This document shows, one piece after another, positions 43,774 to 52,039 of a stretch of 64,000 bases of DNA. The translations under genes were made by a program, and so were the position numbers. The DNA lies in NCBI RefSeq assembly GCF_022808695.1, contig NZ_JAKZKW010000013.1:1-64000 (forward strand), written 5' to 3'. Numbering within the stretch: the first letter of the stretch is position 1; each line of letters opens with the position of its first letter. The stretch comes from Fundidesulfovibrio soli (GTDB lineage Bacteria; Desulfobacterota; Desulfovibrionia; Desulfovibrionales; Desulfovibrionaceae). The notes under the pieces were generated by a model. That model was not told where the DNA came from, searched no databases, and saw only the letters and a list, made by a program, of their open reading frames with translations.

Positions 43774-43849
43774 TGGTGCCGAGGGAGAGAATTGAACTCC
43801 CGACACGGGGATTTTCAGTCCCCTGCTCTACCAACTGAGCTACCTCGGC
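43774..43849 (-). tRNA. tRNA-Phe (anticodon GAA)
   Basis: A 76-base cloverleaf on the minus strand. Acceptor GCCGAGG pairs with CCTCGGC; D-arm with AGCTCAGTTGGTAGAGC; anticodon stem GGGGA/TCCCC around CTGAAAA, anticodon GAA; T-arm with GTTCAATTC. CCA is encoded. A strong terminator follows and hflX ends 29 bases upstream of it in the same direction. Confidence 0.97.
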
Positions 43850-43878: not shown

Positions 43879-45540
43879 TCAGGTTGGCAAGCCCTTTTCC
43901 CATTTCAGGCGCGATAAAATTTCATTCACCAGGGGTTCCAGGCTCGGGCGGGTCCTGGCGGAGATGGGCACACCGCCGGGGTAGCGGCTGAGCACCCAGG
44001 TTCTGCCGTCCTCGTCCAGGGTGTCCCACTTGTTGAGCGCCAGGATGCGCGGCACCTTGTTAAGCTCCATTTCCTCCAGGATGGCCTCCACGGCCTCCAC
44101 CTGCCCGGCCAGCTCGCGGTGCCCGGCGTCGGCCACCAGGATGAGCAGGTCCGCGCTCTCCAGTTCCTCCAGGGTGGCCTGGAAGGCCTCCTTGAGCTCC
44201 TTGGGCAGCTCGCGGATGAAGCCCACCGTGTCCGTGAGCACCAGCTCGCGCTCCTGCGGGAAGCGCAGCCTGCGGCTCACGGGGTCCAGGGTGGCGAAGA
44301 GCTTGTTCTCGGCCAGCACCTCGGACTGGGTCAGGGTGTTGAGCAGCGTGGACTTGCCCGCGTTGGTGTAGCCCACCAGCGAGACGATGGGCAGCCCGGC
44401 CTTGGCCCGCCTGTCGCGCACCTGGGCGCGTTGCTTGCGCAGCTCCTGCAGTTCGCGCTTGATGCGGGTGATGCGCTCGCGGATGCGGCGGCGGTCCACC
44501 TCCAGCTTGGTCTCGCCGGGGCCGCGCCCGCCGATGCCGCCCATGAGCCGGCTCATGGCAGGGTTCTTTCCCACCAGCCTGGGCAGCGTGTACTTGAGTT
44601 GGGCCATCTCGACCTGCAACTTGCCCGAACGCGAGGTGGCCCGCTGGGCGAAGATGTCCAGGATGAGCTGGGTGCGGTCCAGGATCTTGCGCTCGGTCAG
44701 GTCTGCCAGGTTGCGCATCTGGGCCGGTGTCAGCTCCCCGTCGAAGAGCAGCACGGCCGCGCCCGAGGACAGGGCCATGATCTCAAGCTCGGAGAGCTTG
44801 CCCTTGCCGATGATGGTGCGTGGGTTCACCTGGGGTACGCGCTGCAGCACCCTGCCCGTCACCTTGAGCCCGGCCGTGGCGGCCAGGGCCTCCAGTTCGT
44901 CGAGTGAGGCCTCCAGCTCCAGGCGCGGCGCGCTGCCCACGCCCACCATGATCGCCCGGTCGGACACGCCCGCCTCGGAACCGGCCACGGGCTGGTCCAG
45001 CCGGGCGAACTCGTCCTCCAGGGCTTGGGTCATGGCCTCGAAATCGATGTCCAGGCGGTCCCAGGGGGCCGGGGGCAGCACCTCCCAGGGGTCGCCGCCC
45101 TCGCCTTCCGCGGTTTTGGGCAGCAGGTGCGCGGCGTAGATCCGGTCCGGCGCGGCCATGTCGTCCACGGTCAGGGCGGCCACGGAGTCCAGGCGCAGGA
45201 AGAGCATGTCCGTGAGGTCTTCCTTGTCCAGCCCGGCGTCGTGCAGGTGCGTGTGCAGCAGGCGCAGGCCGCGCAGGCGGCCCGAGCCCAGGCGGGAGCG
45301 GGGAAGCTCCGGGATGTAGATGGCGTGGGGCTCCCCCACCAGGACCATGTCCGGCCTGCCCTTGCGGTCTATGAGCAGGCCAATCTGCCTGCCAATGCCG
45401 TGGGAGATGGCCGCCAGTTCGCGGGCCTGGTCCGGGGTGTAGCCGGCCTGGGGGGGATAGCGCCGGGTGTAGAGCCGCTCAAGGGCCTTGAGCTGGCTGG
45501 GTTTGAGTCCTTCGGTGTTGCCTTGGGCTTTGCTGGCGAT
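43879..45540 (-). CDS. hflX: Ribosome-associated GTPase HflX, apparent ATC start
   Basis: A 553-residue HflX, a GTPase that binds and splits stalled 70S ribosomes. The G domain has P-loop GYTNAGKST (about 390-398), FATLDPVSRRL, DTVGFI and NKWD; before it lie the nucleotide-binding-like domain (IIGKGKLSELE) and the coiled coil. The first ATG/GTG/TTG in frame would begin at MVLVGEPHA (45348) and drop a 64-residue stretch typical of HflX in this group (GLKPSQLKALERLYTRRYPP, QARELAAISHGIGRQIGLLIDRKGRPD). GGGAGG lies six bases before ATC at 45540, where related proteins begin MASK. I therefore start at ATC. An additional CTG lies further upstream but is less likely. Confidence 0.75.
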   Translation of the reverse strand: MASKAQGNTEGLKPSQLKALERLYTRRYPPQAGYTPDQARELAAISHGIGRQIGLLIDRKGRPDMVLVGEPHAIYIPELPRSRLGSGRLRGLRLLHTHLHDAGLDKEDLTDMLFLRLDSVAALTVDDMAAPDRIYAAHLLPKTAEGEGGDPWEVLPPAPWDRLDIDFEAMTQALEDEFARLDQPVAGSEAGVSDRAIMVGVGSAPRLELEASLDELEALAATAGLKVTGRVLQRVPQVNPRTIIGKGKLSELEIMALSSGAAVLLFDGELTPAQMRNLADLTERKILDRTQLILDIFAQRATSRSGKLQVEMAQLKYTLPRLVGKNPAMSRLMGGIGGRGPGETKLEVDRRRIRERITRIKRELQELRKQRAQVRDRRAKAGLPIVSLVGYTNAGKSTLLNTLTQSEVLAENKLFATLDPVSRRLRFPQERELVLTDTVGFIRELPKELKEAFQATLEELESADLLILVADAGHRELAGQVEAVEAILEEMELNKVPRILALNKWDTLDEDGRTWVLSRYPGGVPISARTRPSLEPLVNEILSRLKWEKGLPT

Positions 45541-45688
45541 GGGGAACCTCCCGGGGCGCTCCGTCCGGAGCAGGCCCCTGCCCCGCTGATGTAGGACAGG
45601 CCAGGGCCGGAGGCAAGGGGGGCAGGTGAAAGCGAAGCCCCCGGAGCGGCCGCGAGGACACTCCGGGGGACGATATGCCGCCTCCCCC

Positions 45689-45768: not shown

Positions 45769-46362
45769 CTAGGCCCGGCCCAGGTACTCCGCGATCATGG
45801 CGTCGTAGGCCGAAGTGGCCTTGAAGGTCTCCAGGGCCATCTTGTGGCGCAGGGCCAGGGGGGCCTGCATCGCGTTGGCCTTGAGGGCTTCGGTGATCTC
45901 TCCGTAGTAGACGGGTGAGGGCACGACCAGGATGGAGTGGAAGTTCTTGGCCGAGGCCCGCAGCATGGTGGGCCCGCCGATGTCGATCTGCTCCACGGCG
46001 GCCTTGAGGTCGGCCTTCTGGGCCACGGCCTTGGCGAAGTCGTAGAGGTTCACGCAGATGAGGTCGAAGGGCTTGAGGCTGAATTTCTCCAGGGTCTCAA
46101 GATGTTCGGGGTTGTCCTTGTCGGCCAGGATGCCCGCGTGGATGTGTGGGTGCAGGGTTTTGACGCGTCCGCCGAGCATCTCGGGGAAGCCGGTGACCTG
46201 ATCGACCGCCGTAACCGGCAGCCCGGCGTCGGTCATGGCCTTCTTGGTGCCGCCGGTGGAGACCAGCTCCACCCCGTTGCCGGAAAGGAACGCGGCGAAC
46301 TCGGCCAGGCCGGATTTGTCGGTGACGGATAGGATGGCCCTGCGGATAGGCAATAATTCCAT
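45769..46362 (-). CDS. Stand-alone IMP cyclohydrolase (PurH N-terminal domain)
   Basis: A 197-residue enzyme equal to the MGS-like N-terminal half of PurH, closing FAICAR to IMP. Seen: AILSVTDKSGLAEFAAFLSGNGVELVSTGGT, the signature VTGFPEMLGGRVKTLHPHIHAGIL and IDIGGPTMLRASAKN. The AICAR transformylase half is absent and not next to the gene, so formylation must be done by another protein. GAGG seven bases before ATG. A 16-bp inverted repeat lies upstream. Confidence 0.9.
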   Translation of the reverse strand: MELLPIRRAILSVTDKSGLAEFAAFLSGNGVELVSTGGTKKAMTDAGLPVTAVDQVTGFPEMLGGRVKTLHPHIHAGILADKDNPEHLETLEKFSLKPFDLICVNLYDFAKAVAQKADLKAAVEQIDIGGPTMLRASAKNFHSILVVPSPVYYGEITEALKANAMQAPLALRHKMALETFKATSAYDAMIAEYLGRA

Positions 46363-46443
46363 CTCTGCCTCGCTTTTTGCTTGGCAGTGCCAGACCCGGC
46401 GGCTCTTGGCAACCCGTGGGCCGGGCCCTCCCCAGTCTTTTAG

Positions 46444-46489
46444 TTGGTTCCCGGTCCGGCCGCCGGGAGCGAACCGGACCGGGAACCAA
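46444..46489. repeat. Long perfect inverted repeat upstream of IMP cyclohydrolase
   Basis: Arms TTGGTTCCCGGTCCGG (46444-46459) and CCGGACCGGGAACCAA (46474-46489) pair perfectly over 16 bp around 14 bases. On neither strand is the stem followed by a T-run, so it is not a simple terminator. It sits between two minus-strand genes. Confidence 0.8.
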
Positions 46490-46521
46490 TGGGGGAGGGG
46501 AGATTCGTAGGAAATTTCCGG

Positions 46522-48714: not shown

Positions 48715-50313
48715 ATGCCCGCACTGCTCAAGAACCTCTGGGAACAGGCCACCCGTTTCTGGGCCGCCAGAACCATGGCCCAGCGCGTCCTCTTCGCGGG
48801 CGTGGCCATCTCCGTGGTGGCGGCCTTCGCGCTGATGATCTTCTGGTTCAACCAGCCCGACTACAAGGTGCTGTTCTCCAAGCTGAGCCAGGAGGACGCC
48901 GGGCGCGTCATGGAGAACCTCAAGGCCTCCAAGACCCCCTACAAGATCGAGGACAACGGGCAGACCATCCTGGTGCCCGCCGAATTCGTGAGCGAGACCC
49001 GCATCCGCATCGCCGGCGACGGCAAGCTGCGCGGCGCGGGCCTGGGCTTCGAGGTCTTCGACGACACCAAGGTGGGGCAGACCGACTTCGTGCAGCGCAT
49101 CAACTACCAGCGCGCCCTGCAGGGAGAGCTGGCCCGAACCATCGGCGAGTTCCCCCAGATCGAGAAGGCCCGCGTGCACCTGGTGCTGCCCCAGCGCAGC
49201 CTCTTCATCGAGGAGCAGCGCAAGCCCAGCGCCTCGGTGGTGCTCACGCTCAAGACCGGGGCCAAGCTCGAACCCAAGCAGGTCCAGGGCATCGTCAATT
49301 TCGTGGCCATGAGCGTCGAGGGATTGGATCCCAACCGCGTGACCGTCACCGACACGGCCGGCAAGATCGTCTTCCAGGCCAAGGACGGCTCCAGCATCGA
49401 CGGCATGACCTCCACCCAGTTCGAGTTCCGCAACAACTACCAGAACACCCTGGAGCGCCGCATCGAGGAACTGCTGACCCCCATCGTGGGCGGCGGCAAG
49501 TCCATCGCCAAGGTCTCGGCCAACCTGGACTTCTCCCAGAAGGTCACCAAGCGCCAGAGCTACGACCCCAACAAGACCGTGGTGCGCTCCGAGACCCGCG
49601 AGGAATCCTCCACCAACCAGAAGGCCAACGTCGACGGCTCCGTGCCCGAGACCAACTTCCGGGGCGACGGCTTCTCCGGCACCCAGAACAAGGTGGACCA
49701 GGCCTCAGAAAAGCGCATGACCAACTACGAGATCGACTCCGAACAGCAGGAGATCGTGTCCCCCTCCGGGGAGTTGCAGCGCCTCTCGGTCGCGGTTATC
49801 GTGGACCACATTCAGGACCCGGGCAGCAAGGAAGTGAAGTTCATCCCCCGTCCCGCGGAGGAGTTGGAGCGCATCAAGCAGGCCGTGTCCAACGCTGTCG
49901 GCATCGACTCCAGGCGCGGCGACACCATCGAGGTCAGCTGCATGGCCTTCGGCGAGCGCGAGCTGTTCACCGAGCCGAGCCTGACCCAGAACATGCTGGA
50001 GTACGCCCAGCGACTGGGCAAGCCCTTCCTCAACGGCCTGCTGGTGTTCCTCTTCCTGCTGCTGGTGGTCCGCCCGGTGGTCATGGCGCTCATCCGCCCC
50101 CGCGTCACCCGCGAGGAGATCGAGCAGATCAGCCGCCTGCCCGAAGGCGAGCGCCGCATCGCCCTGGCCGAACCGGAAGAGGAGGAGACGGAACACGTGG
50201 AAGTCTCCAAGCGGCTTGAAAACGCCAAGATTCTGGCGCAGCAGCTTTTCGAAACAAATTCCGAGCAGGCCATCCTGATCCTGCGCGGATGGCTCAAGCA
50301 GGAGGCCTCCTAA
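48715..50313 (+). CDS. fliF: Flagellar MS-ring protein FliF
   Basis: A 532-residue inner-membrane ring protein that seeds flagellar assembly. Helix one at about 23-43, two ring-building motifs (KVLFSKLSQEDAGRVMENLKASKTPYKIED, RIAGDGKLRGAGLGFEVFDDT), a long periplasmic part, helix two at about 440-462 and a cytoplasmic tail (acidic EPEEEETEH, then ANAKILAQQLFETNSEQAILILRGWL-like) that binds FliG. Length is normal. Four bases to fliG. Confidence 0.96.
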   Translation: MPALLKNLWEQATRFWAARTMAQRVLFAGVAISVVAAFALMIFWFNQPDYKVLFSKLSQEDAGRVMENLKASKTPYKIEDNGQTILVPAEFVSETRIRIAGDGKLRGAGLGFEVFDDTKVGQTDFVQRINYQRALQGELARTIGEFPQIEKARVHLVLPQRSLFIEEQRKPSASVVLTLKTGAKLEPKQVQGIVNFVAMSVEGLDPNRVTVTDTAGKIVFQAKDGSSIDGMTSTQFEFRNNYQNTLERRIEELLTPIVGGGKSIAKVSANLDFSQKVTKRQSYDPNKTVVRSETREESSTNQKANVDGSVPETNFRGDGFSGTQNKVDQASEKRMTNYEIDSEQQEIVSPSGELQRLSVAVIVDHIQDPGSKEVKFIPRPAEELERIKQAVSNAVGIDSRRGDTIEVSCMAFGERELFTEPSLTQNMLEYAQRLGKPFLNGLLVFLFLLLVVRPVVMALIRPRVTREEIEQISRLPEGERRIALAEPEEEETEHVEVSKRLENAKILAQQLFETNSEQAILILRGWLKQEAS

Positions 50314-50316
50314 GCC

Positions 50317-51312
50317 ATGAACCTGACCGGACCGCAAAAGACCGCCGTTCTCTGCCTGGCGCTCGGCGACAAATTCTGCTCCGAGGTGTTCAAACGCATG
50401 GAGCGCGGCGACATCGCCCGCATCTCCAAAGCCATGCTGGAAATCGACACCGTGGAGAAGGAGGACGTCGAGGAGGTGCTCAGGGAGTTCAACGAGTCCA
50501 TGCAGTACGGTCAGGACCTGCTGGTGGGCGGCGCGGACACCGTGAAGCGCATGCTCAGCAAGACCCTGGACTCCGACACGGCCAAGTACATCATGGACTC
50601 GCTGGAGATCTCCTCCGGCCCCATCCCCTTCCAGGAGCTGGGCAACACCTCGCCGCGCATCCTGGCCCAGATCCTGCGCAACGAGCATCCGCAGACCCTG
50701 GCGCTCATCCTGGGCCACCTGCAGCCGGACCAGGCCGCGGAGCTGCTCCAGAACCTGCCCTCGGGCGTGCGCGCCGAAGTGCTCCTGCGCCTGGCTAGGC
50801 TGGAGGCCGTGGCCGAGGAGATGCTCGTGGAGGTGGACCGGGTGCTCCAGAACCAGCTCATCGCCATGGGCGGCAAGGAAGGCAAGAAGGTGGGCGGCGT
50901 GCCCGCGGTGGCCGAGATCCTCAACGCGGTGGACCGCGCCACGGAAGAGGAAGTCCTCTCCGAGATCGAGGAGGAGTCCGCCCAGATGGCCGAGGACATC
51001 CGCAACCTCATGTTCGTGTTCGAGGACGTCAAGGTTCTGGACGACCGCTCCATCCGCGAGCTGCTCAAGGAGGTCTCCAACGAGGAGCTGACCCAGGCCC
51101 TCAAGGGCGCCTCCGACGAGCTCAAGGAGAAGTTCTTCAAGAACCTCTCCGAGCGCGCGGCCACCATGATCCGCGAAGATCTGGAGATCATGGGCCCCGT
51201 CCGGCTGGCGGACGTGGAGTCGGCCCAGCAGAACGTGGTCAAAACCGTGCGCAGGCTGGAGGCCGAGGGCAAGATAGCCATCGGCAGAGGCGGCGGCGAT
51301 GTCTTCATCTGA
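50317..51312 (+). CDS. fliG: Flagellar motor switch protein FliG
   Basis: A 331-residue C-ring protein. N-terminal FliF-binding helices, the middle domain with EHPQTLALILGHLQPDQAAELLQNLP, and the C-terminal motor domain with the charged torque helix (DDRSIRELLKEVSNEELTQALKGASDELKEKFFKNLSERAATMIREDLE). It overlaps fliH by 14 bases. Confidence 0.96.
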   Translation: MNLTGPQKTAVLCLALGDKFCSEVFKRMERGDIARISKAMLEIDTVEKEDVEEVLREFNESMQYGQDLLVGGADTVKRMLSKTLDSDTAKYIMDSLEISSGPIPFQELGNTSPRILAQILRNEHPQTLALILGHLQPDQAAELLQNLPSGVRAEVLLRLARLEAVAEEMLVEVDRVLQNQLIAMGGKEGKKVGGVPAVAEILNAVDRATEEEVLSEIEEESAQMAEDIRNLMFVFEDVKVLDDRSIRELLKEVSNEELTQALKGASDELKEKFFKNLSERAATMIREDLEIMGPVRLADVESAQQNVVKTVRRLEAEGKIAIGRGGGDVFI

Positions 51313-52039
51313 TCCGTCACGCGGCCTGCTGCCCGGCAACGCCAGGGTGGTCATGGGCATCGGGGCCAACGGTCCCACCGAGATGACCGTCCACGAGATC
51401 GAGGGCGCCAAGACCCAGACCCTGGACGAGAAGACCGAGCTGGAGTTCTGGGCCAGGGTCCGGGCCAAAGCCCAGGCCAAGGCCCGCGAGATACTGGAGC
51501 AGGCCCTGGCCGAGGCCGAGGCCGTGCGCGCCCAGGCCCGGGAGGAAGGCTTCCACCAGGGGCTGGCCGAGGCGTCCCAGGCCTGCGAGGCCCAGCTGGC
51601 CGCCATGGGCGGCACCCTGGCCGGGACCATGCAGGGCATCGAGGCGGAGCGCCCCAGGCTCTGGGCCGTGCACCGTCAGGAATTCGCCGCCCTGCTCAAG
51701 ATGGCGGTGGAGAAGGTGCTGCACACGGAGCTTTCCCAGCGCCGCCAGGAGATTCTCTCCAACCTGCTGGACCAGGCCATCGACCTGATGGACACCCGCA
51801 AGGGCTTCACCGTGCTGGTGAGCCCCCAGGACGAAGAGACCGTGGCCCACCTGCTGGAGGAGGCCAAGAAGGCCCACCAGGGCATGGGCCACTGGCGCGT
51901 CAAGGCGGACCCGTCCCTGGAGGCCGGAGGCGTGCGCCTGGAATCCGACGCGGGCATCGTGGACAACTCCGTGGACACCCGCTTCGAACAGATTTCCGAC
52001 CTTCTGGACCGCGTCGGCTTCGACGACGCCCAGCCCTGA
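51299..52039 (+). CDS. fliH: Flagellar assembly protein FliH
   Basis: A 246-residue regulator of the export ATPase FliI. A variable N-terminus is followed by an Ala/Glu-rich amphipathic helix (about 50-110, glycine-spaced repeats) and the conserved C-terminal domain (KADPSLEAGGVRLESDAGIVDNSVDTRFEQI). The start lies inside fliG, giving a 14-base overlap; ATGTCTTCATCTGATC is in frame +1 to fliG. Four bases to fliI. Confidence 0.9.
   Translation: MSSSDPSRGLLPGNARVVMGIGANGPTEMTVHEIEGAKTQTLDEKTELEFWARVRAKAQAKAREILEQALAEAEAVRAQAREEGFHQGLAEASQACEAQLAAMGGTLAGTMQGIEAERPRLWAVHRQEFAALLKMAVEKVLHTELSQRRQEILSNLLDQAIDLMDTRKGFTVLVSPQDEETVAHLLEEAKKAHQGMGHWRVKADPSLEAGGVRLESDAGIVDNSVDTRFEQISDLLDRVGFDDAQP

Follow-up and report, generated by a model that had tools for sequence, protein, structure and literature searches.

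Where does translation of hflX begin in the sulfate reducer Fundidesulfovibrio soli? Within the stretch of 64,000 nucleotides analysed here (the window), the hflX frame opens on the minus strand after a TAG at 45769..45771, which is also the stop codon of a purH-like gene. It then runs for 76 codons to an ATC (45538..45540, minus strand) and for a further 64 codons to its first canonical in-frame start, the ATG of the sequence MVLV (45346..45348, minus strand; residue 65 when counted from the ATC). A sequence-only reading of this DNA had claimed that the frame lacks ATG, GTG and TTG between the upstream stop and MVLV, that the 64 stop-free codons before MVLV look like HflX, and that GGGAGG lies exactly six bases before the ATC at 45540, and it had taken AUC for the start codon, with a CTG at 45573 as another candidate. 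On the window itself, the number of ATG, GTG and TTG codons in frame between the TAG and the ATG of MVLV was indeed zero, and GGGAGG was found at 45547..45552 (minus strand), exactly six bases 5' of the ATC. Read from this codon, full-length hflX occupies 43879..45540 on the minus strand (553 codons and a stop). The CTG at 45573 is present in the hflX frame; however, neither this codon nor the internal ATG at 45346-45348 is directly preceded by GGAG, AGGA or GAGG in the window sequence.

Some neighbouring features can be mentioned here. A tRNA-Phe (GAA) gene lies immediately 3' of hflX (43774-43849, minus strand). Upstream of hflX, the hexamers TTGCCT and TACATC are separated by 17 bases (45588-45616, minus strand) and are partly conserved in some congeners; they could represent a promoter of hflX's own. 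A consensus scan of the region 5' of hflX for sigma-70 promoters and terminators gave zero of each and did not call this pair.

We then turned to relatives. The gene hflX was found in all seven genomes searched in the genus, and a match was present in 146 of 149 genomes of the family sample; in seven of these 146, however, the best match was a weak one of the sort given by other GTPases, with E values no better than 2e-8. A search with the N-terminal region matched 145 of 150 order genomes (one copy being broken) and 229 of 296 genomes of the phylum sample. Altogether 305 loci were tried (genome loci, 80 named loci and fetched stretches), and 288 of them held the hflX N-terminal region, the 17 without it being weak-match loci of other GTPases. 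Removal of exact duplicates over about 40 codons around the start (52 of the 288) left 175 sequences of the order and 61 from outside it. The former comprise 107 genome loci, 59 records named as Desulfovibrionales and nine records without an order name, which were assigned to the order by likeness and one of which has ATG. The latter comprise 57 top-ranked of 216 matching genomes plus five named loci minus one duplicate, and thus represent the best-scoring part of the matches, lower-scoring genomes being left out. As a separate observation, one order genome of 1.4 Mb (G486, C1:350938-351357) carries an N-terminal match with four in-frame stops, and five other order genomes of 1.4-2.5 Mb gave no match to the N-terminal query of hflX; the gene may have been lost in reduced genomes of the order.

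At the site of the window's ATC, the order-wide sequences had ATA in 79 cases, ATC in 74, ATT in 20 and ATG in two, i.e. ATH (AUH in the mRNA) in 173 of 175; these are counts of distinct sequences, not of independent events. All six of the order's family codes contained ATH only, and the two ATG codons belong to named records (L074 and L121). Relatives therefore do not start with MASK, as the sequence-only reading had assumed; their in-frame consensus at the site is I-A-x-K. Among the 61 sequences from outside the order, we found ATC in 16, ATT in 14, ATA in seven, ATG in 14, TTG in eight and GTG in one, while one (L295) offered no candidate codon. ATH thus occupied the site in 37 of these 61 best-scoring matches from the rest of the phylum, spread over 22 of the 35 family codes read. 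As far as these alignments tell, an ATH start of hflX is common in the phylum sample and far wider than first noted. On the other hand, 23 of the 61 have ATG, TTG or GTG at the site, indicating that some lineages can do without the rare start. Other phyla with a long HflX were almost unsampled, the one such relative found being that of Fusobacterium vincentii, with an ATG start; a scan of viral_contigs gave none.

Several observations bear on whether the ATH codon is really the initiation site. In 135 of 173 order loci, and in 28 of 37 from outside, no ATG, GTG or TTG occurs between the upstream stop and ATH, and the stop lies within ten codons of ATH in 51 of 173 and 17 of 37, respectively. 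A Shine-Dalgarno core, defined as GGAG, AGGA or GAGG ending 4-11 nt before ATH, was in register in 159 of 171 order loci and in 33 of 36 outside it, most commonly at a spacing of 7 nt (two order rows and one outside row with too little upstream DNA were left out). It was missing in 12 of the 171; five control windows of 8 nt further upstream contained such a core in only 4-15 of 171 and 0-5 of 36 loci. Codon use at the site is also unlike that within the genes: ATA makes up 79 of 173 starts in the order against 326 of 3375 internal isoleucine codons of the same genes, an approximately 4.7-fold excess (Fisher p = 8.5e-32). Outside the order the excess was not significant (7 of 37 starts against 86 of 659 internal isoleucine codons, p = 0.32). 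In an ungapped comparison of 134 loci of equal spacing, codons 1 and 2 matched the window protein with identities of 0.99 and 0.93, against a range of 0.04-0.25 over codons -1 to -15. By this measure, conservation begins at the ATC codon of hflX.

The DNA on the two sides of the ATC differs accordingly in five congeners, the nearest one being left out. Changes within codons 1-64 (45349..45540, minus strand) fall mainly at third positions (in one congener, L006, 24 third-position changes stand against 6 at the first position and 2 at the second). Upstream of the ATC, by contrast, 27-32 of the 46 bases between -60 and -15 are different in an ungapped comparison. In 62 sequences from across the phylum, G11, L12, R51, Q52 and R59 are invariant. 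Taken together with the Shine-Dalgarno core and the codon counts, these patterns make it near certain that hflX is initiated at AUH. The 64 codons that the sequence-only reading called HflX-like are conserved, change mostly at third positions and fall within a predicted domain.

This domain belongs to a long form of HflX. Read from the ATC, it is HflX by TIGR03156 (443.8 bits, cut-off 216.75, residues 195-543), contains the domains GTP-bdg_N, GTP-bdg_M and MMR_HSR1, and is 97% identical over the best segment to its counterpart in Fundidesulfovibrio agrisoli SG106. The best PDB chains of HflX match it from residue 193-195 onward only. Compared with the HflX of TIGR03156, the window protein has about 190 more N-terminal residues before the part matched in PDB. 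AlphaFold2, run with 62 sequences, gave a mean pLDDT of 84.0 for the whole protein and of 90.6 for residues 1-190 alone, with values of 82-98 for each ten-residue block across residues 1-64. Residues 1 to about 182 (44995..45540, minus strand), which lie outside the NCBIfam and Pfam models of HflX, are predicted to form an extra domain, in which two helices (14-25 and 36-49) are followed by a hairpin with strands at 53-57 and 63-68. The region encoded before MVLV (64 codons) is thus confidently predicted to be part of this domain. Since Met65 falls within the second hairpin strand, a protein started at MVLV would lack the first hairpin strand along with the two helices. No Pfam family matched the extension. 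In a Foldseek search none of 573 matches reached E <= 0.001; many of the top rows were JAB1/MPN proteins (best E 0.002), with low TM-scores. The window extension contains HTH and conserved Asp residues, without a full JAMM motif, and the matching domain of the Fusobacterium HflX reads HTHPGG...SSVD, presumably a JAMM-like motif. On this weak resemblance, we suspect that the extension may adopt a JAB1/MPN-like fold.

Against this background, other ways of starting the protein can be weighed. If translation began at the ATG of MVLV or at the CTG at 45573, the conserved stretch before MVLV would be untranslated. MVLV does offer the first canonical in-frame codon, and many relatives have ATG at the same codon; however, codons 1-64 change in the manner of protein-coding DNA and carry invariant and near-invariant residues in the 62 sequences, the MVLV methionine falls within a predicted strand, and both codons lack a Shine-Dalgarno core just before them. 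CTG fares no better in relatives, an in-frame CTG within 15 codons upstream of ATH being present in 16 of 173 loci only. We regard this reading as highly improbable; the start at MVLV was rejected on the conserved codons 1-64 and the predicted domain, and the CTG at 45573, put forward earlier as a candidate, was dropped as not conserved and without a Shine-Dalgarno sequence. It also seems very improbable, if slightly less so, that the cell makes two forms of HflX, a long one initiated at AUH and a short one initiated at the internal ATG. Methionine is the majority residue at position 65 in the 62 sequences, as two forms would have it, yet the internal ATG has no core before it in the window and the short form would cut a domain.

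A canonical start might, in principle, also be hidden by an error of sequencing or assembly, or lie in another frame and be reached by frameshifting. We found no point in favour of either. ATH was read in 173 of 175 distinct sequences, which by their titles come from 175 different genomes or records, and comparison with relatives thereby rules out a sequencing error; homologues with ATG at the same place, which would have spoken for such an error, number only two of the 175. As for frameshifting, no start codon recurred at a fixed position in any frame between -30 and +30, the maximum being nine of 172 loci for ATG and ten of 172 for ATG, GTG and TTG together, and this alternative was rejected as well. 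The chance that either explanation holds is practically negligible. Individual loci do have a canonical codon close by: it lies within 12 codons upstream of ATH in 18 of the 173 order-wide loci. In two loci of one genus (L254 and L259) ATG is found two codons upstream of ATH, one base after the Shine-Dalgarno core; another (L077) has ATG four codons upstream, and four (L045, L055, L057 and L067) have GTG three codons upstream, which in L045 touches the Shine-Dalgarno sequence.

Next, we examined whether the start codon itself is under selection. On a FastTree phylogeny of 235 sequences (140 residues, first codons omitted), the order requires a minimum of 32 substitutions that stay within ATA, ATC and ATT, as against two at the site that lead to or from a canonical codon. 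At codon 2, however, GCG accounts for only two of 143 GCN codons, so that third-position G is rare there too, and pressure on base composition near the start may help to exclude AUG. This weakens avoidance of AUG as sole proof of selection, and comparison with other genes therefore matters. Four control genes were chosen by design, namely infC, hpf, frr and der. Both hpf and frr, each read in 14 of 15 matching genomes of the same order, start with ATG in 14 of 14 loci. By contrast, infC, read in 45 of 61 matching genomes of the order only, has mostly ATA, and otherwise ATT or ATC, as its start in 45 loci (L306-L350), preceded by a GGAGG core; 40 of these starts were picked automatically, and in the other five (L343, L321, L335, L326 and L311), where the automatic pick fell on a different codon, a conserved ATA was read by eye. 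The infC gene of the window genome itself (contig C16) has an ATA start behind AGGAGG. For der (engA), a crude comparison showed that homology sets in close to a canonical codon in 11 of 13 relatives, and the remaining two alignments begin upstream of the likely start. The difference between hpf and frr on the one side and infC on the other indicates that ATH starts are no general habit of these genomes and mark, among the few genes tested, IF3 and HflX. Among 38 genomes in which the infC pick was valid, the start codons of hflX and infC were identical in six, so that co-variation at the level of the codon is absent. The ready interchange of ATA, ATC and ATT, together with their rare identity to the infC codon, fits a need for a codon that is not AUG, GUG or UUG, with no special codon preferred.

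A further control of specificity was made within the window. Among 18 open reading frames conserved in at least two of six congeners, three were flagged for conservation ahead of their first canonical codon. Besides hflX, these are the purH-like gene, the leader of which is conserved as DNA with indels in two congeners, and 49768-51675 on the minus strand, which we take to be a shadow of conserved genes on the opposite strand. Limited synteny, and alignments that start well inside several of the reading frames, make this control small and insensitive. Comparison among genomes shows the position of the hflX start, its conservation, its Shine-Dalgarno sequence, its reading frame and its contrast with hpf and frr, and the rare start appears to have been kept by selection across relatives, with the rarity of G at codon 2 as a caveat.

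The leader of the purH-like gene is an observation in its own right. Upstream of the ATG at 46362, a conserved leader (46363-46521, minus strand) contains a long hairpin, TTGGTTCCCGGTCCGG ... CCGGACCGGGAACCAA, which, as read by eye, sits within an outer helix of C-rich and G-rich strands. It is near-identical in one relative (L370) and conserved with indels in two others (L361 and L368), and had no Rfam match at the gathering threshold. It could be an attenuator, or a terminator of the gene upstream.

What might be the use of such a start? We propose that the AUH codon of hflX was selected for being non-canonical, and that IF3 probably keeps HflX low and lets it rise when IF3 becomes scarce. 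Translation would start at AUC (AUA or AUU in relatives), aided by a strong Shine-Dalgarno sequence in register, and the ordinary initiator tRNA would insert fMet. IF3, by rejecting weak third-position pairs with the initiator anticodon, would hold HflX synthesis low; with too little IF3 for the 30S subunits present, HflX synthesis would go up. Weak third-base pairs are reported to be disfavoured by IF3 in vitro (PMC10158994), and reporters starting at AUA or AUU reached about 10% of the AUG level in S. aureus grown in poor medium (PMC13009471). IF3 is further described as preventing 30S subunits from re-joining after splitting, with HflX as an alternative splitting factor (PMC9067457). Because infC also starts with AUH in the order, a single circuit would join the splitting of 70S ribosomes by HflX to the action of IF3 in keeping 30S subunits free. 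The same class of start codon and a strong Shine-Dalgarno sequence suggest repression of hflX by IF3 and a joint response with infC; this would tie HflX to the supply of IF3, in keeping with the precedents of infC and sigR. The analogy with infC drawn by the sequence-only reading was strengthened by the ATA, ATT and ATC starts of infC in its 45 loci and by ATG in 14 of 14 loci for each of hpf and frr. Its interpretation as a whole is partly supported: the AUC start is very strongly supported by the alignment of homologues (ATH in 173 of 175), and feedback on initiation fidelity via IF3 is something that we infer.

The main rival to this proposal is a fixed brake without feedback. According to it, the AUH start is real but sets a constant low level of HflX and does not report the supply of IF3. 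Such a brake would fit the identical comparative facts, i.e. the ATH codons, the Shine-Dalgarno sequences and the counts of codon use, and it has a precedent: in 2002, Binns and Masters reportedly found E. coli pcnB to be translationally limited by its AUU start. For a constant low level, however, a weaker Shine-Dalgarno sequence or promoter would suffice, yet that of hflX is strong and in register, as at infC. Moreover, since no AUH start should escape the action of IF3, a fixed brake would presumably need constant IF3. We consider a fixed brake rather unlikely.

As for the age of gating by IF3, shared AUH starts might reflect an ancient circuit of IF3 and HflX across the phylum. An excess of free or newly split 30S subunits over IF3 would lower discrimination, and the cell would then make more HflX as well as more IF3 to hold the subunits apart. 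With infC starts read in the order only, we regard the case for such a phylum-wide circuit as evenly balanced. If it is true, the identity of the start codon would define a small regulon that senses the supply of subunits without a dedicated regulator. With hflX as a second gene for a translation factor that starts at AUH, throughout an order and in many families of the phylum, IF3 proofreading would seem to act as a regulatory signal for the splitting of ribosomes, an idea that is testable by changes of a single codon. We would also predict that gene finders limited to ATG, GTG and TTG shorten hflX by tens of codons in these genomes, and that other such hidden genes with AUH starts remain.

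IF3-sensitive non-canonical starts are a known kind of control, of which hflX would be a member unreported in the literature searched. IF3 represses non-canonical starts, and infC regulates itself in this way (PMC5472188); the same source counts few experimentally characterised non-canonical start codons in bacteria, and further cases of AUU, AUC, AUA and GTC starts are described in PMC13009471, PMC1780047, PMC9410913 and PMC5472188. The titles and abstract openings covered, all from open-licence PMC articles, contained no report of an AUH start of hflX; with the search limited to that collection and its matches partly covered, this is weak evidence of absence. The gene has the features expected of a start gated by IF3, namely a non-canonical codon with no usable canonical start and a strong Shine-Dalgarno sequence at normal spacing. 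Among the non-canonical starts drawn here from the literature, the widely conserved ones are those of infC and of ccpN, the latter from S. aureus to B. subtilis (PMC13009471).

Compared with infC, hflX shares the AUH start, the strong Shine-Dalgarno sequence at normal spacing and the deep conservation, in the same order. It differs in that IF3 regulates its own gene, whereas HflX is another protein, so that the loop would be one of cross-regulation, and in that the codons of the two genes differ in most genomes compared. Streptomyces sigR, like hflX, has a non-canonical start and an extensive ribosome binding site; its start is reported as GTC in 32 of 34 and GTT in two sequences within the genus, and repression by IF3 was demonstrated with extra infC and with infC fidelity mutants (PMC5472188). 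Unlike sigR, hflX is a different gene, belongs to the AUH class and not to GUC, and is conserved at another breadth; IF3 repression is shown for sigR and putative for hflX. The AUA start of ccpN and the AUU start of cvfC1 in Staphylococcus are likewise described as conserved and accompanied by strong Shine-Dalgarno sequences (PMC13009471). These genes, however, encode a metabolic repressor and a putative virulence factor, and their starts came from initiation profiling, that of hflX from comparison of genomes. A further parallel is lepA, which encodes another translational GTPase, for which an AUU start was inferred to restore the full-length protein; lepA was described with two species given as examples, while AUH starts of hflX occur throughout the order and are frequent in the phylum sample.
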